A stretch of 49,016 bases of DNA, taken from the NCBI GenBank assembly GCA_017467805.1, contig JAFUKJ010000004.1, positions 1 through 49,016 on the forward strand. The letters are read 5' to 3'. The stretch is from Lachnospiraceae bacterium. Its GTDB lineage: Bacteria; Bacillota; Clostridia; Lachnospirales; Lachnospiraceae. Shown here one piece after another: positions 1,791-32,889 of the stretch. Within the stretch, counting starts at the first letter, position 1, and every line of letters begins with the position of its first letter. The position numbers and the translations under genes are program-made. The notes beneath the pieces were generated by a model. It was not told the DNA's origin, searched no databases, and worked only from the letters and a program-made list of their open reading frames with translations.

Positions 1791-2978
1791 ATGGCAAAGG
1801 CTAAATTTGACAGAACTAAACCACATTGTAACATTGGTACAATCGGACACGTAGACCATGGTAAGACAACTACTACAGCAGCTATCACAAAGGTTTTAGC
1901 TGAGAGAGTAGCAGGTAATGAGAAGGTAGATTTTGAGAATATCGATAAGGCTCCAGAAGAGAGAGAAAGAGGTATCACAATTTCTACAGCTCACGTTGAG
2001 TACCAGACAGAGAAGAGACATTACGCACACGTTGACTGTCCAGGACATGCTGACTATGTAAAGAACATGATCACAGGTGCTGCTCAGATGGACGGCGCTA
2101 TCTTAGTAGTAGCTGCAACTGACGGTGTTATGGCTCAGACAAAGGAGCACATCCTTCTTTCTCGTCAGGTAGGTGTACCTTACATCGTTGTATTCATGAA
2201 CAAGTGTGATATGGTAGACGACCCAGAGTTATTAGAGTTAGTAGAGATGGAAATCTCAGAGCAGTTAGAGGAGTATGAGTTCACAGATTGTCCAATTATC
2301 CGTGGTTCAGCTCTTAAGGCTCTTGAGGATCCAAACGGCGAGTGGGGCGACAAGATTATGGAGTTAATGAGCACAGTTGATGAGTTCATTCCAGATCCAG
2401 AGCGTGCTACAGATAAGCCATTCCTTATGCCAATCGAGGATATCTTCACAATCACAGGCCGTGGTACAGTTGCTACAGGTAGAGTAGAGCGTGGTGTTCT
2501 TCATGTAAATGAGGAAGTTGAAATCGTTGGTATCAGCGAGGAGACAAAGAAGACTGTATGTACAGGTATCGAGATGTTCAGAAAGCTTCTTGATGAGGCT
2601 CAGGCTGGTGATAACATCGGTGCTCTTCTTCGTGGTATCCAGAGAACAGAGATCCAGAGAGGACAGGTTCTTTCTAAGCCAGGTACAGTTAAGTGCCACA
2701 AGAAGTTTACAGCTCAGGTTTACGTTTTAACAAAGGAAGAGGGTGGACGTCATACTCCTTTCTTCAACAACTATAGACCTCAGTTCTACTTCAGAACAAC
2801 AGACGTAACAGGTGTTTGTGAGTTACCAGCAGGTACAGAGATGTGTATGCCTGGCGATAACGTTGAGATGACAATCGAGCTCATCCATCCAATCGCTATG
2901 GAGCAGGGTCTTACATTCGCTATCCGTGAAGGTGGACGTACAGTAGGTTCAGGCCGTGTTGCTACAATCATCGAGTAA
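1791..2978 (+). CDS. tuf: Elongation factor Tu
   Basis: EF-Tu delivers aminoacyl-tRNA to the ribosome as a GTP complex. The protein is 395 residues, normal for the family. Visible GTPase motifs are GHVDHGKT (19-26), DCPGH (82-86) and NKCD (137-140), followed by the beta-barrel domains with [13 protein letters not shown]. The start is set by AAGGAGG about 10 nt before the ATG. It has its own promoter upstream and a strong terminator downstream, so it is separated transcriptionally from the following lipoprotein gene and from the S10 operon 38 kb away. Confidence 0.99.
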
Positions 2979-3014
2979 TACGATAGCTGTAGGCTAAGTA
3001 TATAAGTAAATATT

Positions 3015-3053
3015 ACCCATGGGAATGCATGCATTCCTATGGGTTTATTTTTT
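3015..3053 (+). terminator. Intrinsic terminator after tuf
   Basis: A 14-base arm starting ACCCATGGGAATGC (3015-3028) pairs with 3031-3044, with one G-U pair, and is followed by TTATTTTTT. It closes the fusA-tuf transcription unit. Confidence 0.9.
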
Positions 3054-3101
3054 GGAATAATTTAATTTACATAATAAAGAGACATAATTGAGGAGTATCA
3101 G

Positions 3102-4274
3102 ATGAAAAGAGTAAGAGTAGGGCTTGCTGCAGTATGCATATGCTTAGCGTTAACAGCATGTGGAAATCAAGCAGAAGATGTGAATATTGTAGATGAAACA
3201 ATAGCATTAAGTGGAGGCGAAGCAGTAGAAAGTTTTATTTCTACAGATGTTGCAGAGAGTGAAGAAAGTGTAGAAGAGGAAACAACAATTGAGGAGAGCG
3301 AAGAATTAAGAATCGTTAATTATGAAGCAAAGCTAGAAATATTGGAAGCAAAGTGGTATGACGGTATAATACAGGTTAATGATGTACTTGTTCAGTTGCC
3401 TATTAATTTCAATGATTTGATTGCACTTGGTTTTGATTATGAAATAGAGGGAATTGCTAAAGATGCTGAGCTTGAGGAATATACAGACTACACTGTATAT
3501 TATTATTTTGGAGGAGAAAAGCTATTTAGTAGCGAAATATCTTGTAGAATAGGTAAAGGACATACTATAGCTGGTTTGAATCCAGAAATTACTACGATTG
3601 ATATTGAACCAGAAAATTTGTCGGATACGGTAAAGGATACATTCGATATTTATATACCAGGTGGAATGAAGATGGGAGACTCAGACTCGTGGATTAAGGA
3701 AGAGTATGGTGAGCCTACAGCGTTTAATGGTATTGAAGTAAAAAATTATATATACGAAATGGGAACTGATTCTCCAATAGGGTTAACGGTTCGCGTTGAT
3801 TCAAATACCAAGAAAATTACAGGATATTCAGTAAGCAGAAGAATAGGAATTAATAATATGGAAGATATTGCAAGTATGTATTATTTCCTTTCTTCATCAG
3901 CAAGTTTAAGATTAGATTATTTTAAATCATATGAACTTAGTTGGGGTGGAAGATATTCATTATTTAGATATGCAGACAGTGTATATGGAGTTCATTTGAA
4001 TGCCAATGCGACAACCTCTGATTTGTATGTTGAAACAGTAGGAGATTTATGCTATCAGGTTACAGGGGATGATGGTATATTTAGAGAGATTAGAACCTAT
4101 GCAGGAGCTGATGGATTGCAGGACGGTTTTTCTTTTGTCGTAATTGATGGTAAGAAGATGATGACAGGACAGATTTGTTTTGAAAATATATCGCAGGATA
4201 TAGCGGAAGATTATACAGCAATGTTCCTGGATATGGTAACTAATATGGTAAATTCTATGAAGATAGAGAAATAA
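3102..4274 (+). CDS. Putative lipoprotein, function unknown
   Basis: The 390-residue product begins with a basic n-region, a hydrophobic stretch and the lipobox LTAC, with the lipidated cysteine at position 20, so it should be anchored outside the cell membrane. A Glu/Ser/Thr-rich linker (about 25-75) follows, typical of a tether across the cell wall. The remaining globular part is not one I recognise. The start is supported by GAGGAG upstream of the ATG. A possible weak promoter (TTGGAA 3052-3057, 17 nt, TAAAGA) overlaps the tuf terminator region. It appears monocistronic, with terminators on both sides. It may belong with the other extracytoplasmic proteins of this accessory block, but the sequence gives no direct function. 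Confidence 0.85.
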   Translation: MKRVRVGLAAVCICLALTACGNQAEDVNIVDETIALSGGEAVESFISTDVAESEESVEEETTIEESEELRIVNYEAKLEILEAKWYDGIIQVNDVLVQLPINFNDLIALGFDYEIEGIAKDAELEEYTDYTVYYYFGGEKLFSSEISCRIGKGHTIAGLNPEITTIDIEPENLSDTVKDTFDIYIPGGMKMGDSDSWIKEEYGEPTAFNGIEVKNYIYEMGTDSPIGLTVRVDSNTKKITGYSVSRRIGINNMEDIASMYYFLSSSASLRLDYFKSYELSWGGRYSLFRYADSVYGVHLNANATTSDLYVETVGDLCYQVTGDDGIFREIRTYAGADGLQDGFSFVVIDGKKMMTGQICFENISQDIAEDYTAMFLDMVTNMVNSMKIEK

Positions 4275-4276
4275 AT

Positions 4277-4312
4277 CAAAGGCGAGGCGGAGAGATACCG
4301 ACCTCGCCTTTG
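4277..4312 (+). terminator. Intrinsic terminator after the lipoprotein gene
   Basis: CAAAGGCGAGG (4277-4287) pairs perfectly with CCTCGCCTTTG (4302-4312), an 11-bp GC-rich stem. The downstream T-run is short and interrupted. Confidence 0.7.
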
Positions 4313-4342: not shown

Positions 4343-4412
4343 TGCATTTCATTACTCAAAAATGCATCTTACCATGCAAACTATTGCTGCTTTTTTATAT
4401 TTCATTTATAGT
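4343..4412 (+). promoter_or_regulatory. Tandem LytTR-type boxes plus promoter of the hydrolase-LytTR-DUF3021 operon
   Basis: Two direct repeats, TGCATTTCAT (4343) and TGCATCTTAC (4363), lie 20 nt apart. The second begins 21 nt upstream of a -35 element TTGCTG (4384-4389), which is followed by a 17-nt spacer and TATAGT (4407-4412). LytTR proteins are known to bind paired direct repeats about two helical turns apart. The same motif and geometry recur at 29950-30020 before the other LytTR operon, so autoregulation by the operon's own LytTR protein is the likely reading (inference). Confidence 0.7.
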
Positions 4413-4444: not shown

Positions 4445-5563
4445 ATGAAGATTGAAAAGAGAAAGCATAAAGTGTGGTTCATAATCGGGGGAATTTTATT
4501 GTTACTAATAATTGTAATTATAATGATACCAAAGATTCTGTTTACAGATTATGAAGGACTTCCAACTACAGGTCCTTACGAGGTAAAGCAGGTAGCGACA
4601 ATTCTTGTGGATGACGAGAGGGTGGAAACCTTTGAAACAGATGGCTCGAATCGTGAAGTTCCGATATATTTTTATTATCCTGACGTGGAAGAGAGCAGTG
4701 AGAAGAGTTTTCCGTTAGTAATCTTCTCTCATGGAGCATTTGGATATTATCAGAGCAATACATCTACATATATGGAGTTAGCCAGTCATGGCTATGTGGT
4801 CATCAGCTTGGACCATCCGTACCATTCATTTTTTACCAAGGACACAGATGGGAAGACGATTACGGTTAATCCCGAGTTTATGCAAGAGGTGATGTATATT
4901 AATGAGGATGGTACACCAGAGGAAGAGATTATAGAGCTGTCACATCAGTGGTTGGATATTCGAGTGGCGGATATGAGTTTTGTGCTCGATAGTGTGAAAA
5001 AAGCAAATATGACAAGTGAGTTATTGGCAGATACATGGTTTTCTACAGATGATGCAATAAGACAAGAGCTTCTCAGTGTATTAACAATGATTGATACAGA
5101 AAAAATTGGTTTGATGGGACATTCTCTTGGTGGTGCGGCTAGTGTGACGATGGGGCGAACCAGAGATGATATTGACGCTGCGATTGATCTTGATGGCTCT
5201 ATGCTTGGTGAGGAGTTCGGCTATGAGAATGGAGAATTCATATTGTATGAAGAGGCTTATCCCGTGCCGTTGCTATTCTTAAGCAATGAAGCGCACCATA
5301 TGATGAGGAGCGAGGTGAAAAGTCTGGATGTGACCCATGTGTTGCTTGAAAACGCAGTTGACAGTAAGTATACTTATTTCAAGGGTAGTGGACATATGAA
5401 TTTTACAGATTTACCACTTTATTCTCCGATTCTTGCTTCACTTTTAGGAGTGGGAGAAGTGGATGCCGAGGAATGTATTATTACGATGAATGAAGTCATT
5501 TTGGAGTTTTTTAACGGTTATTTAAAGGATGAAGATATTGTGACGATAAAGGAATGTTACTAA
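4445..5563 (+). CDS. Membrane-anchored alpha/beta hydrolase
   Basis: The 372-residue protein has a basic N-terminus and one transmembrane segment (about 10-30), then an extracytoplasmic hydrolase domain. The oxyanion-hole motif SHGAFGY (about 95-101), the nucleophile elbow GHSLGG (225-230, Ser227) and a C-terminal SGHMNF with His317 support a serine hydrolase related to the dienelactone hydrolase / platelet-activating-factor acetylhydrolase group. The substrate is unknown. AAGGGAAGGTG precedes the start. It heads an operon in which the LytTR regulator begins 2 nt after its stop and DUF3021 follows, so the hydrolase is probably the regulated output of that signalling pair. Confidence 0.88.
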   Translation: MKIEKRKHKVWFIIGGILLLLIIVIIMIPKILFTDYEGLPTTGPYEVKQVATILVDDERVETFETDGSNREVPIYFYYPDVEESSEKSFPLVIFSHGAFGYYQSNTSTYMELASHGYVVISLDHPYHSFFTKDTDGKTITVNPEFMQEVMYINEDGTPEEEIIELSHQWLDIRVADMSFVLDSVKKANMTSELLADTWFSTDDAIRQELLSVLTMIDTEKIGLMGHSLGGAASVTMGRTRDDIDAAIDLDGSMLGEEFGYENGEFILYEEAYPVPLLFLSNEAHHMMRSEVKSLDVTHVLLENAVDSKYTYFKGSGHMNFTDLPLYSPILASLLGVGEVDAEECIITMNEVILEFFNGYLKDEDIVTIKECY

Positions 5564-5564
5564 G

Positions 5565-6008
5565 ATGGAAATCAAATTATTAAGAATTGCAAAAGGGCAG
5601 CCTGAGCAGATAGAGATACGTTGCCATGAAATAACAGAAGAGGTTCGGGAGATTGTAACCTTTGTAAAGACCAGGCAGGGACAGTTAACTGGTGTACAGG
5701 AAGGGAAGCAGTATGAGGTTCCTGTTTTAGATGTTTGTTACATTGAAGCAGTGGATAATAAGGTGTTTCTTTACACGCAGAAGCAGGTCTATGAGACCAG
5801 ACAAAAGCTATACGAGCTAGAGGAACTTTTGAAGGAAAAATATTTTCTTCGCGTATCCAAGTCTCTTCTTTTGAACCTAATGAAAGTGAAGTCAATTAAG
5901 CCTGCCTTAAATGGTCGCTTCTTGGCGATTTTACAGAGTGGTGAGGAAATTATTATTTCCAGAAAATATGTGCAGGAACTGAAAAACGCATTGAAGGGTG
6001 GTATCTAG
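5565..6008 (+). CDS. LytTR-domain DNA-binding regulator (copy 1)
   Basis: The 147-residue protein has a short N-terminal extension and a LytTR DNA-binding domain over roughly 45-147. The characteristic stretches YIEAVDNKVFLYT, FLRVSKSLLLNLMKVKSI and GEEIIISRKYV are visible. There is no receiver domain, so it is not a classical response regulator. It sits between the hydrolase and a DUF3021 membrane protein. LytTR/DUF3021 pairs are a recurrent Firmicutes cassette, and by analogy with LytTR regulatory systems such as HdrRM and BrsRM the membrane partner may hold the regulator inactive. It is paralogous to the protein at 31952. The likely targets are the repeats at 4343-4372. Confidence 0.93.
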   Translation: MEIKLLRIAKGQPEQIEIRCHEITEEVREIVTFVKTRQGQLTGVQEGKQYEVPVLDVCYIEAVDNKVFLYTQKQVYETRQKLYELEELLKEKYFLRVSKSLLLNLMKVKSIKPALNGRFLAILQSGEEIIISRKYVQELKNALKGGI

Positions 6009-6010
6009 GA

Positions 6011-6451
6011 ATGCATGGAAAAGAATTTACAATAGATTTGATTAGAACATTTTTTACAGTAGTAACATTGGTTAATGTAGCAATACTTGTGATGGGGCTG
6101 TGGTTTGCACCAGACATCCAATTTGGTTATGAGGCCTTTGAGGCGCCTTTGATTTATGGTGCTGTAGGTACCTTGCCGAATATTGTAATGTATTCTAAGA
6201 AAGAATTATCAGTAAAAGCACTTTTTGTGCGAAAGGTGCTTCAGTTTATCTTGATTGAAGTATTAGTTCTTTTTGCAGCATTTTACGGAGCAGAGGTATA
6301 TTGGCAGCAACCAAAGATTATAGTGAGTGTTGGCATCAGCATTTTCCTGATATATGTTGTTGCAAGCATAATAGATTGGATACAAAACTATGTTACAGCA
6401 AAAAGAATGACCGATGAGTTGGTGAAGTTTCAGGAACGTGTGAGAGGATGA
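6011..6451 (+). CDS. DUF3021 family membrane protein (copy 1)
   Basis: The 146-residue protein has four predicted transmembrane helices (about 12-32, 45-63, 75-95 and 103-123) and a charged C-terminal tail ending in VKFQERVRG. This matches DUF3021 proteins encoded next to LytTR regulators. It starts 2 nt after the LytTR stop, so the two are probably translationally coupled. It may sense an envelope signal or act as a membrane-bound inhibitor of its LytTR partner. That role is inferred from analogous systems; nothing in the sequence identifies the signal. Confidence 0.88.
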   Translation: MHGKEFTIDLIRTFFTVVTLVNVAILVMGLWFAPDIQFGYEAFEAPLIYGAVGTLPNIVMYSKKELSVKALFVRKVLQFILIEVLVLFAAFYGAEVYWQQPKIIVSVGISIFLIYVVASIIDWIQNYVTAKRMTDELVKFQERVRG

Positions 6452-28296: not shown

Positions 28297-28345
28297 GTAG
28301 CCTTTTACAAATATGAATTGTATTATCAATGAGGGGGGTGACGAG

Positions 28346-28828
28346 ATGAGTCAGGAATCATTGTGCGCAGATGATTGGGAAATAATTAAGAAATATTCGG
28401 ATATGGTATACCGCATGGCATATTCTTTGCTCAAAAATAAGTATGATGCGGAGGATATCCATCAAGAGGTTTTTGTGCAGTATATGCGGAAAAGACCGCA
28501 GTTTGAAGGTGTGGACCATGAAAAAGCATGGTTCTTACGCGTAACGATTAATCTATGCAAAAACAATTGGAAGACAGCATGGAAGCGTAAGGTGGTCAGC
28601 CTGATGGACGAGGGCTATGAAGAGGTGATAGAGCTGCCAAATCATGAGTTGATAGATACAGTAAATCAGCTCCCAAAGAAATACAGAATGGTAATTCATC
28701 TGTTTTACTATGAGGAATTATCAATACAGGAAATTGCAGAGATACTGAATAGCAAGCCTTCCACAGTCAGAACATGGTTAACCAGAGCGCGTGCCAGCTT
28801 AAAGAGATTATTAGAGGAGGATTCATAA
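28346..28828 (+). CDS. ECF-type sigma factor (copy 2)
   Basis: The 160-residue protein has sigma region 2 (YSDMVYRMAYSLLKNKYDAE, then DIHQEVFVQYMRK) and region 4 (MVIHLFYYEELSIQEIAEIL followed by NSKPSTVRTWLTRARASLKR). The start at 28346 is preferred over an earlier ATG (28313) because GAGGGGGG lies just upstream. Its stop overlaps the next ATG by one base (TAATG), a sign of translational coupling with the DUF4179 partner. The upstream terminator separates it from the BlaR1 gene. A clear ECF autopromoter was not seen. Confidence 0.93.
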   Translation: MSQESLCADDWEIIKKYSDMVYRMAYSLLKNKYDAEDIHQEVFVQYMRKRPQFEGVDHEKAWFLRVTINLCKNNWKTAWKRKVVSLMDEGYEEVIELPNHELIDTVNQLPKKYRMVIHLFYYEELSIQEIAEILNSKPSTVRTWLTRARASLKRLLEEDS

Positions 28829-29910
28829 TGTTTGACGATACATATTTCAAAAGCGCCTATCAAAAGGCGTATGATAGCATTACTCCAGACAAGGCATGTT
28901 TAGACAGGTTAGAAGAATATAAAGAGAACAAAATAAAAGGGAGAGTACTGTATCAAATGATGCGCCCTGTAGTTGTGGCAGCAGGCGTATTTGTACTGAT
29001 ATCAGCGGTTTCACTGCCTGTAGTAGCAAGGTCCATTCCTGGCGTATACGATACAATTGCAAGGATTGCCCCAGGCTTAGCAGAGTATATCCTGCCGACG
29101 CAGGTAAGCTGTACCAGTCAGGGAATTACCATGCAGGTAGAGGCAGTTCATGTGAATGATAAAAATGCAGAGGTAATTGTGTCATTTGCGGATGCAGAGG
29201 GAAGCGACAAGGATTTGATTAGAGGTGCAGTGGATTTATATGACAGCTATCATCTGAAAAGCTACAGCTCATATAGTAATGTAGGGGGATGCACCTTCTT
29301 GGAATATGATGCCGAGGCAGACAAGGCCTATTTTAAGGTAGATGTATGGACTGATGGAAGTTTTCGACAGTCTAAGTTATCATTCAGAACCCGTCAATTA
29401 TTGCTTAATAAGTCAGATGAAAAGAAGTGGCTTGACCTTAGTGATATTGTGATAAATCCTGCCATGAAAAAAGTAGAAATGAATGGAGGGGGAGGAATGC
29501 CAGGAACTCCATTATATGAGCAGTATTTCGGTGAGTTTTTTTCTTCGACGGAGAGATTGACGCAGGTTCTGGATCTTCAGCAGATAGATGAAAGCATGAT
29601 GAAGGAGCTTACGATTACAGGAATTGGCTATGCAGACGGAATTCTTCATGTGCAGTGCTGTAGAGGTGATTTTGCAGAGGCAGACCGTCATCTGGAGCTT
29701 TATATAGTGGATGCAGACGGAACGGAAAGACATAATGATTTATCCATAGGCTGGCAGGAGGAAGTGAACGGAGAAAGAGTTCTTATGGATGAGCTTTTAT
29801 TCCAAGTAGATGAGAGCGAATTGGCAGACATACAAATGTATGGAATTTTTCATATCATAGATGGAAGTATGAAGGGTGACTGGGAGGTTACTTTTAGTAT
29901 TGAAAATTAG
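28828..29910 (+). CDS. DUF4179-type membrane protein, probable anti-sigma factor
   Basis: The 360-residue protein has a ~47-residue cytoplasmic N-terminus (FKSAYQKAYDSITPDKACLD), one membrane span (about 49-68) and an extracytoplasmic domain beginning ARSIPGVYDTIARIAPGLAE. This is the arrangement of DUF4179 proteins, which are commonly encoded directly after ECF sigma genes in Clostridia and act as transmembrane anti-sigma or sensor proteins. AGAGGAGG precedes the start. The two genes form a closed operon ended by a terminator at 29926. The signal sensed is unknown. Confidence 0.85.
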   Translation: MFDDTYFKSAYQKAYDSITPDKACLDRLEEYKENKIKGRVLYQMMRPVVVAAGVFVLISAVSLPVVARSIPGVYDTIARIAPGLAEYILPTQVSCTSQGITMQVEAVHVNDKNAEVIVSFADAEGSDKDLIRGAVDLYDSYHLKSYSSYSNVGGCTFLEYDAEADKAYFKVDVWTDGSFRQSKLSFRTRQLLLNKSDEKKWLDLSDIVINPAMKKVEMNGGGGMPGTPLYEQYFGEFFSSTERLTQVLDLQQIDESMMKELTITGIGYADGILHVQCCRGDFAEADRHLELYIVDADGTERHNDLSIGWQEEVNGERVLMDELLFQVDESELADIQMYGIFHIIDGSMKGDWEVTFSIEN

Positions 29911-29925
29911 CAACTTACGGGAAAG

Positions 29926-29950
29926 GGATGTGCTTTGCACATCCTTTTTT
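29926..29950 (+). terminator. Intrinsic terminator after the sigma-DUF4179 operon
   Basis: GGATGTGC (29926-29933) pairs with GCACATCC (29937-29944) around a TTT loop, followed by T6 (29945-29950). Confidence 0.88.
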
Positions 29951-30020
29951 GCATCTTACATCTCCCCAAATGCATCTTACAAGTACCCCTATTGTATTTA
30001 AAATTCAAACAATATATACT
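29950..30020 (+). promoter_or_regulatory. Tandem LytTR-type boxes plus promoter of the ABC-LytTR-DUF3021 operon
   Basis: Two identical direct repeats TGCATCTTACA start at 29950 and 29971 (21 nt apart). The second starts 21 nt before a -35 element TTGTAT (29992-29997), followed by 17 nt and TATACT (30015-30020). The first box overlaps the terminator T-run. Same box and geometry as at 4343-4412. Confidence 0.75.
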
Positions 30021-30072: not shown

Positions 30073-30987
30073 ATGAGCGAAATTATTAAAGTAAACAATT
30101 TGAAAAAGTATTATAAAGAGACAAAGGCAGTTGATGATATCAGCTTCTCAGTAGAAAAGGGAGAGCTATTCGGATTCCTAGGAGTGAATGGAGCAGGAAA
30201 GACCACAACAATCAGCATGTTGTGTACACTGCTTGAGCCGACAGACGGAAAGGCAGAGATAGCGGGCTTCCAATTAGGGAAAGAGGATGCTGAAATCAAG
30301 AAGCGTATCGGTGTAGTTTATCAGGATAACTGCTTGGATGATATTCTGACAGTGAAGCAGAACTTAATGTTAAGAGGTGGCTTGTATGAGGAAAATACAA
30401 AGAAGATAAAGCAGAGAGTAGAGCAGCTTTCAGAGATTCTTGATTTAAAGGATATTCAGAATCAGAAGTTTGGAATGCTTTCAGGCGGTCAGAAGAGAAG
30501 GTGCGAGATTGCAAGAGCGCTGATGCATACACCTGAGATTTTATTCTTAGATGAGCCGACCACAGGTCTTGACCCAGCATCAAGAAAGAGTGTGTGGGAG
30601 ACAGTAAGCAAGCTGCAGCAGGAGATGGGTATGACAGTATTCCTGACAACTCACTATATGGAGGAAGCGGCAAGAGCAAATCATATTGGCATCATGCAAA
30701 AGGGGCATTTGATTGAGTATGCGACACCAAGTGAGTTGAAGACACAGTATGCAAAGGATAAGTTGCTTCTATTCCCAAAGGAGTCACAGATAGAAGAAAT
30801 CCTTCTCAGATTAAATCAGACAGAGCAGGCTTACAAAGTAAAAGAAAATCATATTCAGGTACAGCTTGCATCTACCATTGCTGCATTGCCGATTATGGAG
30901 CAGGTAAAGACCTTGGTAAATGGTTTCGAAGTGGTACAGGGTAATATGGATGATGTATTTTTGAATGCAACACAGGAAACAATGTAA
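30073..30987 (+). CDS. ABC transporter ATP-binding protein
   Basis: The 304-residue ATPase has Walker A GVNGAGKTT (37-45), signature LSGGQKRRCE, Walker B ILFLDEPTTGLDPASR and an H-loop TTHYMEEA. The C-terminal ~80 residues form the extra domain typical of DrrA/NatA-like exporters. The start at 30073 is preferred over an upstream in-frame ATG (29935) that lies inside the promoter region. The ABC-2 permease follows 40 nt downstream, then LytTR and DUF3021. It likely powers export of a drug, peptide or lipid. Confidence 0.93.
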   Translation: MSEIIKVNNLKKYYKETKAVDDISFSVEKGELFGFLGVNGAGKTTTISMLCTLLEPTDGKAEIAGFQLGKEDAEIKKRIGVVYQDNCLDDILTVKQNLMLRGGLYEENTKKIKQRVEQLSEILDLKDIQNQKFGMLSGGQKRRCEIARALMHTPEILFLDEPTTGLDPASRKSVWETVSKLQQEMGMTVFLTTHYMEEAARANHIGIMQKGHLIEYATPSELKTQYAKDKLLLFPKESQIEEILLRLNQTEQAYKVKENHIQVQLASTIAALPIMEQVKTLVNGFEVVQGNMDDVFLNATQETM

Positions 30988-31027: not shown

Positions 31028-31933
31028 ATGAATAAATTAGTATGTTTGACAAAGAGAAATTGTGCGGTATTTTTAAAGGATAAGGCAGCGGTATTTTATT
31101 CGCTGTTATCTATGATTATTGTATTAGTGTTGATGGGTGTTTTTCTTGGCGACATGAATGTGTCAGCAGTAACAAATATTCTGAATCAGTATGGTGGTGT
31201 GAGAGATGAAGTGATGGATAGTGCAAATGCAAAGGTACTTATATCATACTGGACATTATCAGGACTTATGGTAGTGAATGCATTGACAGTTACTTTGACA
31301 GTGCTTGGAACTATGGTTACAGATAAGACTGGAAACAAGTTAAAGAGCTTCTACACTGCACCTGTAAGCAAGTTTGTTGTAGCATTATCTTATATTGCAT
31401 CGGCAGTCATCATTGGATTTTTATTCTGTACACTGACATTGGCAGGTTATATACTTTATATTTATATGAACGGTGGAGCTGTTTTAAGCGCAGGCGCACT
31501 CTTAAAGGTTATGGGATACACACTCGTTAATGTAACAATTTTCTCTATCGTAATGTATTTGTTTGCCTTGATTGTAAACAGCTCTAGTGCTTGGAGTGGT
31601 ATTGCGACAATCGTGGGAACCTTGGTGGGCTTTTTTGGAGCAATCTATGTACCTATAGGAAGTCTGCCAGAGCAGGTTGCAGCAGCATTAAAATGTTTCC
31701 CAATTCTTCATGGAACTTCTCTTATGCGTAAGGTGATGTGTGAACAGGCAATGGCAGACACTTTTACAAATGTACCGGCACAGGTACTTGATGTGTATCG
31801 TGAAGAGATGGGAATTGATATTCTTATGAATGAAAGCTTGATTAGTGATGAACTACAGTTATCATTTATGGTAATTTGTGGTATGATAGCTTTGGTTGTC
31901 ATTGCGGTAACCACAAAGAAAAAGCAGATGTAG
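31028..31933 (+). CDS. ABC-2 type permease
   Basis: The 301-residue membrane protein has about six spans and the ABC-2 pattern: an N-terminal cytoplasmic stretch, span 1 near 20-40, a loop, then spans in the segment from SGLMVVNALTVTLTVLG to the C-terminus (about 275-295). IYVPIGSLPEQVAAALKCFP is a typical ABC-2 re-entrant segment. AGAGAGG precedes the start. With the preceding ATPase it forms an exporter whose substrate cannot be read from sequence. It lies 18 nt before the LytTR gene of the same operon. Confidence 0.9.
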   Translation: MNKLVCLTKRNCAVFLKDKAAVFYSLLSMIIVLVLMGVFLGDMNVSAVTNILNQYGGVRDEVMDSANAKVLISYWTLSGLMVVNALTVTLTVLGTMVTDKTGNKLKSFYTAPVSKFVVALSYIASAVIIGFLFCTLTLAGYILYIYMNGGAVLSAGALLKVMGYTLVNVTIFSIVMYLFALIVNSSSAWSGIATIVGTLVGFFGAIYVPIGSLPEQVAAALKCFPILHGTSLMRKVMCEQAMADTFTNVPAQVLDVYREEMGIDILMNESLISDELQLSFMVICGMIALVVIAVTTKKKQM

Positions 31934-31951: not shown

Positions 31952-32410
31952 ATGAAGGTTACAATTATGGACCCGCTGGTGGGAGAAGAGGAAGAGATTA
32001 TTATTAAATGTGCAAATTTAAGTGATACTGCGCTGGCGCTGATTAGTGAGTTAAAGAAGAACGATGGCGCTAGAGGAAAGGCTACTCATAGATTGCATGT
32101 TTATCTTGAGGGCGAGATACATCTTATTGAGCCGACAGCAGTTTATTATTTTGAATATGTGGACCAGAAGGTATTTGCGTATTGTAAGGAAAATGTTTAT
32201 GAGATTAAGAAAAAGCTGTATGAGCTGGAAGAAATCTTACCAGGACAGGATTTTATCCGTGTTAGCAAGTCCAGTATTTTGAATCTGGATAAGATTAGCA
32301 GCTTGGCACCTGCCTTTGGCGGACGTTTTGAAGCAAATCTGAAAAATGGTGAGAAAATCATTATTTCCAGACAGTATGTGAATGCTTTGAAGGAAGCATT
32401 GGGATTATAA
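31952..32410 (+). CDS. LytTR-domain DNA-binding regulator (copy 2)
   Basis: The 152-residue protein is a paralogue of the regulator at 5565. It has a short N-terminal part, then a LytTR domain (about 50-150) with AVYYFEYVDQKVFAYC, DFIRVSKSSILNLDKISSL and GEKIIISRQYV. There is no receiver domain. It is encoded between the ABC permease and DUF3021. It probably binds the tandem TGCATCTTAC boxes at 29950-29981 in its own promoter region (inference from the shared geometry of the two operons). Confidence 0.93.
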   Translation: MKVTIMDPLVGEEEEIIIKCANLSDTALALISELKKNDGARGKATHRLHVYLEGEIHLIEPTAVYYFEYVDQKVFAYCKENVYEIKKKLYELEEILPGQDFIRVSKSSILNLDKISSLAPAFGGRFEANLKNGEKIIISRQYVNALKEALGL

Positions 32411-32433: not shown

Positions 32434-32889
32434 ATGATAAATTGGAAAAAGACAATTGGCAATATGTTGCATCACTATATGATAATTACATTTGCTGTGC
32501 TTGTCGTGACAGCGCTTTATATTACTTTTCTTGTGTGCGATGGGATTCAGTTTGGTGTTGAAATATTGTGGCAGATACTTCTGGTATCTTTTGTGTGTTC
32601 ATTGAGTGAGTTGTTCTTTGGAATGCCAGAGGGAAAAGAGTACAGTAAAAGACAGTGGATTGTCAGATGGGTATTGTGTTATATCTATGTGAATGTGGTA
32701 GTGCTGGGCTGTGGATTTTATTTTGGGTGGTATTTGCCTGATAGTATGCCTATGGTAGTTGGAATGCTGCTTTGTATTGCTGCGGTGTATTCATTTGTGT
32801 ATGGTGTGATATATTTTATGGATGTGAAGACTGCTGAACAGATGAACCAGAAGCTTCAGGAGCGAAAACGCGCTTCTGATGAAGAATAA
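32434..32889 (+). CDS. DUF3021 family membrane protein (copy 2)
   Basis: The 151-residue protein has four predicted spans (about 14-34, 44-60, 73-95 and 103-125) and a charged tail (MNQKLQERKRASDEE), like the DUF3021 protein at 6011. The start at ATG 32434 follows AGGG at 8 nt; a GTG at 32425 is a possible alternative adding three residues. It is the last gene of the exporter-LytTR operon. No terminator is visible before the next promoter (32907). As for copy 1, a role as membrane partner or inhibitor of LytTR is by analogy. Confidence 0.87.
   Translation: MINWKKTIGNMLHHYMIITFAVLVVTALYITFLVCDGIQFGVEILWQILLVSFVCSLSELFFGMPEGKEYSKRQWIVRWVLCYIYVNVVVLGCGFYFGWYLPDSMPMVVGMLLCIAAVYSFVYGVIYFMDVKTAEQMNQKLQERKRASDEE

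Follow-up and report, generated by a model that had tools for sequence, protein, structure and literature searches.

Two operons of a Lachnospiraceae bacterium with the anatomy of LytTR regulatory systems and paired half-sites upstream of a hydrolase gene and of an ABC exporter

Two operons of one contig, the first headed by a hydrolase gene and the second by the genes of an ABC exporter, are preceded by tandem boxes of similar sequence and similar placement. Are these boxes the operators of the LytTR proteins encoded in the same operons, and does their likeness make the two operons parts of one circuit? The window, i.e. the whole stretch of DNA analysed here, is 49,016 nt long (contig JAFUKJ010000004.1, positions 1-49,016, forward strand, assembly GCA_017467805.1, Lachnospiraceae bacterium); it belongs to a gut bacterium whose draft genome has 2,994,647 bases and is 95% complete. 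The elements around the two promoters, the boxes, -35 and -10 of the hydrolase operon being read from the sequence (the distal half-site also by pattern search), are the following:

4278-4311, forward strand: hairpin behind the upstream gene, hydrolase operon; its 10-bp stem (AAAGGCGAGG/CCTCGCCTTT) sets that gene apart from the operator
4343-4352, forward strand: distal LytTR half-site of the hydrolase operon, TGCATTTCAT (9-mer GCATTTCAT at 4344-4352)
4363-4372, forward strand: proximal LytTR half-site of the hydrolase operon, TGCATCTTAC (9-mer at 4364-4372), 20 nt from the distal one and 11 bp from the -35
4384-4389, forward strand: -35 of the hydrolase operon, TTGCTG
4407-4412, forward strand: -10 of the hydrolase operon, TATAGT, after a 17-bp spacer
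29926-29950, forward strand: terminator-like hairpin of the exporter operon, GGATGTGC-TTT-GCACATCC, with a T-run that extends into the first box
29950-29960, forward strand: distal LytTR half-site of the exporter operon, TGCATCTTACA (it reads ACATCTTAC in the relative G011)
29971-29981, forward strand: proximal LytTR half-site of the exporter operon, TGCATCTTACA, 21 nt from the distal one and 11 bp (9-mer register) from the -35
29992-29997, forward strand: -35 of the exporter operon, TTGTAT, with the same letters in G011
30015-30020, forward strand: -10 of the exporter operon, TATACT, after a 17-bp spacer, with the same letters in G011

On re-reading, the letters, positions and distances of both pairs given in a preliminary description of this DNA proved correct to the base: the distance from the start of the second box to the -35 is 21 nt in each operon, and the boxes are 20 and 21 nt apart. 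In a 9-bp register the hydrolase operator is GCATTTCAT-11-GCATCTTAC-11-TTGCTG-17-TATAGT (4344-4412) and the exporter operator GCATCTTAC-12-GCATCTTAC-11-TTGTAT-17-TATACT (29951-30020), so that the proximal half-site is the same in the two. Both have a terminator-like hairpin directly 5' and the first gene of the operon 3'; in G011 both arms of the exporter hairpin are changed and their pairing is largely kept. Upstream of the first exporter half-site, at a distance of 41 nt in the 9-mer register, there is a third box, GCAACTTAC (29910-29918); G011 retains GCAACTTA at this place, and three boxes in a row are also seen in the exporter operators of G014, G024 and G003. Directly 5' of the exporter system (28313-29910) are a gene for an ECF-type sigma factor and a DUF4179 gene, the latter below the Pfam cut-off (26.0 versus 30.1 bits) and possibly coding for the anti-sigma factor of its neighbour.

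The genes behind the two promoters were assigned as follows:

4445-5563, forward strand: PAF-acetylhydrolase-like serine hydrolase with one N-terminal membrane segment (PF03403, E 4.9e-25)
5565-6008, forward strand: LytTR regulator, 147 aa (PF04397, E 2.5e-26, the only family listed)
6011-6451, forward strand: DUF3021-like membrane protein, presumed inhibitor (PF11457, 17.7 bits versus a cut-off of 24.7, E 0.0042, match along the full length)
30073-30987, forward strand: ABC transporter ATPase (PF00005, E 6.5e-35)
31028-31933, forward strand: ABC-2 type permease (PF01061, E 9.6e-10)
31952-32410, forward strand: LytTR regulator, 152 aa (PF04397, E 1.8e-26, the only family listed)
32434-32889, forward strand: DUF3021 membrane protein, presumed inhibitor (PF11457, 29.6 bits, over the cut-off of 24.7)

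The hydrolase scores 88.3 bits against PF03403 (cut-off 20), and its GHSLGG motif, Asp248 and His317 are invariant in a 4-row alignment; the serine of GHSLGG, Asp248 and His317 would be the catalytic residues of the predicted enzyme. By sequence, its nearest PDB entries, all at 54 bits or less, comprise an esterase, PAF acetylhydrolases and cutinase-like enzymes. The enzyme is likely to face outwards, since a positively charged N-terminus is followed by one membrane segment and then by the catalytic domain. In both operons a membrane protein gene lies directly 3' of the LytTR gene. Both had been described as ending in a LytTR gene and a DUF3021 gene: for LytTR this holds in the two cases, both proteins passing the Pfam threshold, but for DUF3021 it holds strictly for the exporter operon only, because the product of 6011-6451 stays below the cut-off. 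The two LytTR proteins are 41% identical to each other, and in a Pfam search neither matched a receiver domain.

The genome has 15 LytTR genes, 7 in short frames (145-162 aa) and 8 in frames of 238-270 aa. Scanning of other short loci gave GCATCTTAC-13-ACCGCTTAC, 10 bp before TTGTAT, for C17, GTCACTTAT-12-GCAACTTAC, 11 bp before TTGCAC, for C42, and GCAACATAA-11-GCAACATAA with a weak promoter for C106; no convincing operator was found on scanning C72 and C101. In C101 (L023), a short LytTR-like gene lacks a membrane-protein gene immediately 3' of it; next to it are two small genes (2578-3147) that encode leaders of the double-glycine type and look, by eye, like bacteriocin genes.

Regulators of the AgrA/ComE type also carry a LytTR domain, and the direct repeats of AgrA are about two helical turns apart, as in the window; these regulators differ from the two window proteins, for which no receiver-domain match was obtained, in having a receiver domain and in working with a sensor kinase. 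The combination of a LytTR regulator and a membrane inhibitor encoded next to it defines the LytTR Regulatory Systems (LRS) of Zou et al. 2018 (PMC6193735), whose main text and Tables 2 and 3 are the basis of the comparisons below. There, the operator is a direct repeat of 9-bp units just upstream of the -35, in most cases with 12 bp between the units and in some with 11 or 13, and the repeats of the Streptococcus mutans LRS end 4-11 bp before that element. Four of the five S. mutans inhibitors carry DUF3021 or DUF2154, ABC transporter genes are linked to two of the S. mutans types, and cross-regulation occurs among the five systems, including systems with differing repeats. LRS are common; the authors wrote in 2018 that only those of S. 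mutans had been characterised. Both window operons combine a receiver-less LytTR protein, a membrane protein gene downstream of its gene and repeats 11 and 12 bp apart. Since this is the anatomy of LRS, with a reservation as to DUF3021 for the hydrolase operon, operators of this kind had been defined before; the preliminary description knew of none for DUF3021-linked LytTR proteins, a view that does not stand because repeats of such operons are listed in the 2018 article, which also demonstrates that HdrR binds and autoactivates.

The resemblance to individual systems of that article can be detailed. The SMU_1070c/1069c and SMU_433/434 types have, like the window operons, a LytTR protein that lacks a receiver domain and a small membrane protein encoded after it, and their repeats, GCAACTTAG-11-GCAACTTGA located 11 bp before TTGTCA for SMU_1070c and ACATCTTAT-12-ACCTCTTAT with a distance of 10 bp for SMU_433, are like the window operators. 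The likeness is one of architecture: one window operon has a hydrolase instead of a transporter, and the promoter spacers differ. Within Tables 2 and 3, the half-sites nearest in letters to those of the window are from Listeria lmo0984/lmo0985, a putative novel LRS of Table 3 (GCATCTTAG-12-GCATGTTAC, 10 bp before TTGTAG-16-TATAAT), the membrane protein of which is reported to be without obvious homology to those of S. mutans. HdrRM of S. mutans provides binding to two 9-bp repeats 12 bp apart (by EMSA), autoactivation and inhibition by the membrane protein; it differs by its half-sites (ACCTCTTAG/ACCACTTAA), by their distance to the -35 (8 bp) and by a membrane protein of the DUF2154 type (PMC6193735).

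To see how far the hydrolase operon is conserved, genome contigs were scanned with the 4-row hydrolase alignment, which gave 194 relatives; the best 80 of these 194 were studied. A LytTR gene is found at most 218 nt after the hydrolase gene in 77 of the 80, and in 76 of these 77 loci it is followed by a 141-178-aa frame with 3-5 predicted membrane segments. Of 16 aligned partner proteins of this kind, two from the window and 14 from the 76 relatives, 13 have a DUF3021 match at E<=0.01. The 80 loci are labelled Lachnospiraceae (51), Oscillospiraceae (12), Anaerovoracaceae (two) and five other families (one each), with 10 lacking a family; such labels can be erroneous for metagenome bins, and the loci do not count as independent of one another, many of them being from related metagenome assemblies. 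In many relatives (L189-L268) the operator is about 250 bp farther upstream of the hydrolase match than in the window; in G001 the extra stretch encodes an added N-terminal membrane region of the hydrolase, absent from the window copy, and the others are presumably alike.

Operators were counted in the 77 hydrolase loci with at least 400 bp of upstream sequence. A matrix was derived from 16 of the 25 published repeat pairs (PMC6193735, Tables 2 and 3); the nine pairs left out were the rows for Actinobacteria other than Corynebacterium, and for Roseburia, Chlamydia, archaea and Bacteroides. With this matrix, operator plus promoter scored at least 18 in 58 of the 77 loci, versus 1 and 1 in the reverse-complement and reversed controls. 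When the spacing was left free, pairs of GCATYTYR (letters taken from these loci and from the window) were found at exactly 20 nt in 69 of the 77, all other spacings from 9 to 60 nt together accounting for 3 loci and the reverse strand for another 3, at three different spacings. The boxes are thus conserved in orthologous operons, a point on which the preliminary description had staked its proposal. The exact pair at 20 nt is absent from 8 loci, among which L228 and L266 have near versions and L233 has a gap of Ns upstream. The half-sites are 11 bp apart in 66 of the 67 loci scoring at least 13.5 with the published matrix; across these 66 operators the two 9-mers, the -35 and the -10 are the best conserved elements, and position 4, which varies among the published half-sites, is T in 65 distal and 64 proximal half-sites. 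The 11-bp spacing is kept with A at position 4 in L266 and in G024 C48, and the alternative half-site GCATTTCA, as in the distal box of the window, recurs in related operons. The operator of this class reads mostly GCATYTYAC, its half-sites being 11 bp apart. Among the three hydrolase loci without a neighbouring LytTR gene, two have no pair; the third (L212, upstream of 5001) has a twin operator in an 11-kb locus where no LytTR gene was detected, and may be controlled in trans.

No hydrolase-linked LRS was found in the open-licence PMC literature; the words hydrolase, esterase and lipase are absent from the main text of PMC6193735, and its supplements may list one. The hydrolase-LytTR-DUF3021 operon looks like a new conserved type of LRS with a nearly invariant operator.

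For the exporter operon, a genus set of 15 rows was picked by LytTR likeness, the window's own included; an ABC signature is present about 1.4-1.5 kb upstream in 14, all but G023. An operator scoring at least 18 was found in 12 of the 15, with 12 bp between half-sites in 11 of them and 11 bp in one (G026); none at that level was detected for G062 (1.6 kb upstream covered), G011 (contig end) and G023. In each of these 12 operators except that of the window, position 4 is A or G in the two half-sites; those of G016 and G061 are identical. In the order-wide set, 8 of 20 operators were judged convincing, including those of G064 and G388 C3, which are barely over the controls, and excluding G124 (score 21.0, located 3.4 kb upstream, with unlike half-sites); seven have 12 bp between half-sites and one (G388 C3) has 11 bp, T at position 4 is seen in one half-site of G398, and the other 12 loci have no convincing operator. 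Here 'exporter type' means likeness of the LytTR protein, since an ABC signature lies upstream in just 7 of the 20 loci. The exporter-class operator usually reads GCARCTTAC with 12 bp (21 nt from start to start) between half-sites. Viral contigs scanned with the exporter LytTR protein gave 25 stretches matching the pattern and 0 relatives.

The relative G011 has a LytTR protein 95% identical to that of the window exporter operon. On another of its contigs, the exporter operator is kept as ACATCTTAC-12-GCATCTTAC-11-TTGTAT-17-TATACT within surrounding DNA that is about 84% identical, which adds to the conservation of the boxes. A search of this draft genome (96% complete) for the hydrolase gave no match.

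How the two classes relate to their regulators was examined with a quick tree of 121 LytTR proteins (SH-aLRT support only), which included 26 of the 77 hydrolase-linked ones and excluded the 55-aa frame of G005 C439; its C101 row has a very long branch. The hydrolase LytTR of the window has hydrolase-linked proteins as its neighbours, in starred sets of 11 and 27 rows. The exporter LytTR forms a starred set of 4 with those of G011, G014 and G024, nested in a larger exporter group that has a support of 91 and is unstarred, and the G388 C3 protein is placed beside the hydrolase clade. Operator class largely tracks LytTR clade. The 20- versus 21-nt spacing is best read as a class feature, since the hydrolase and exporter operons belong to different LytTR clades having their own usual operators; this clade-specific geometry seems to be new. 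The 'same tandem box' of the preliminary description is accordingly right for the half-site, which the two operators share, and not for the rest, i.e. two LytTR clades with different usual operators and spacings. Sharing of one operator by common descent was rejected, as the two classes differ in LytTR clade, in their usual half-site letters and in spacing. The half-site common to both operators is probably due to position 4 of the exporter operator having become T in this species and its close relative; that this T serves to match the hydrolase LRS is unsupported, since G011 also has T and yet gave no hydrolase match.

Both window regulators have V in an R-x-S-K-S loop. Of 115 rows pairing an operator with its regulator, the loop pattern failed to match 2, and another 26, of non-GCA type, were set aside. 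The remaining 87 comprise 63 with V or I in the loop and T in both half-sites, 4 with V or I and no such pair of Ts, 3 with the two Ts and neither V nor I, and 17 with neither feature. Only 2 independent pairs lie on supported branches, where the sign test is not significant, and an earlier screen by exact residue did not pick up the loop position. A single-residue rule linking this loop to position 4 may be taken as a lead only.

The pattern TGCATYTNA-N{9,12}-TGCATYTNA occurs in the window at the two operators only, with 0 matches in 100 dinucleotide shuffles, and the strict paired pattern finds only these two places in the 2,994,647-base genome (reversed control, 0). A looser search for GYATYTYR pairs gave 6 places in the same genome versus 1 in the control: besides the two operators, two are inside open frames and two (C66, C102) outside. 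The one in C66 (16165-16193, minus strand, L306) is a looser twin site, GCATTTCGT...GCATTTCA, outside open frames of more than 100 codons; a LytTR gene with the size of a response regulator gene is about 0.9 kb away. Pairs of RCANCTTR were found at 4 places of this genome versus 1 in the control, three in open frames and the fourth being the exporter operator; a search for GCATCTTA-N13/14-GCATCTTA in 7 relatives gave no match. In G021, two near-identical twin operators (L177, reverse strand, site 4877, and L178, site 4324) read TGCATTTYAT and TGCATCTTAT at 21 nt, then TTGAAY and TATCAT. They precede genes resembling those of a MATE efflux pump and an alpha-galactosidase (names given by eye), neither in a LytTR operon, and are likely to be trans targets.

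Letters alone have limits. Across 61 genomes the strict pattern has 15 matches, and since 9 of them are inside open frames and a tenth, 5' of the hydrolase gene of G001, overlaps the end of the preceding frame, the pattern by itself is no proof of an operator. With the published matrix, 35 of 76 LytTR loci of the genus reach at least 22, versus 3 and 2 in the controls, and 41 are below 22 (one match cut by a contig end, G009 C31, was left out). Taken singly, the hydrolase operator of the window does not stand out to this matrix: in a 4.5-kb scan it scored 19.2 versus 22.5 for the best reversed-control hit of the same stretch. What carries the case, as judged from sequence comparison, is the fixed 20-nt spacing before orthologous operons.

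From the above, we consider it very probable that the window holds two LRS, in each of which a membrane-restrained LytTR protein would bind the paired half-sites of its own operon and autoactivate the whole of it; the autoactivation site of the preliminary description thus receives strong support from comparison. In each operon the DUF3021-type membrane protein would keep the small LytTR protein inactive. Once a signal lifts this restraint, LytTR would bind the two direct-repeat half-sites, which by geometry should lie on the same helix face some 50 and 70 bp upstream of the transcription start, and would aid RNA polymerase, the -35 of the promoter being poor. The resulting positive feedback would induce the whole operon, including the membrane-anchored hydrolase or the ABC exporter. 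For both operons, binding, activation and inhibition are what we infer by analogy with the S. mutans systems.

Whether the two systems act on each other is a separate matter. A single cross-wired circuit, with each LytTR protein binding both operators and the hydrolase and exporter co-induced, seems rather unlikely, although the proximal half-site is identical, the two operators are the only strict matches of the genome and V in the loop of both regulators mostly goes with T at position 4. The spacing of 20 versus 21 nt follows the clade, and G011 has a T-type exporter operator yet gave no hydrolase match. Cross-regulation of LRS is indeed reported in S. mutans, but it links systems with differing repeats (PMC6193735), so that a shared half-site is unnecessary for it. 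Conversely, the likeness of the boxes needs no cross-talk, because there are two LytTR clades with their own operators and because G011 shares the exporter operator without a hydrolase match; cross-talk between the two operons is possible but unsupported, and we favour two operator classes whose half-sites coincide in this species. A bolder combination, in which the hydrolase LRS would be a distinct widespread class with the operator GCATCTTAC-11-GCATCTTAC-11-TTG-17-TATA driving an outward-facing lipid or ester hydrolase, and in which the exporter LRS of this species would have joined the same half-site through operator position 4 and one residue of the R-x-S-K-S loop to make one envelope response, is speculative and unlikely to hold as a whole.

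It is highly improbable that the boxes belong to other LytTR proteins, for instance the longer ones of 238-270 aa, with the adjacent LytTR acting elsewhere: operator class tracks the clade of the adjacent LytTR across species, and two of the three hydrolase loci without a neighbouring LytTR have no operator. What speaks for such an assignment is the number of candidates (8 of the 15 LytTR genes of the genome are in the longer frames) and the twin TGCAT operators of G021, which precede genes outside LytTR operons. The direction of control is unreadable from sequence, which leaves room for repressor sites; this is scarcely credible, as the repeats are wholly upstream of the -35 and HdrR activates from a closely similar geometry (PMC6193735).

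To conclude, two LRS with autoactivating operators of their own remain the preferred reading. The hydrolase-class operator is constant enough to be spotted by eye, which makes it a ready search handle and a clear binding target for an enzyme-linked class of LRS. The substrate of the hydrolase may point to the signal of the system, and the clade-specific operators would lend themselves, as a natural data set, to the study of how DNA is selected by LytTR domains.
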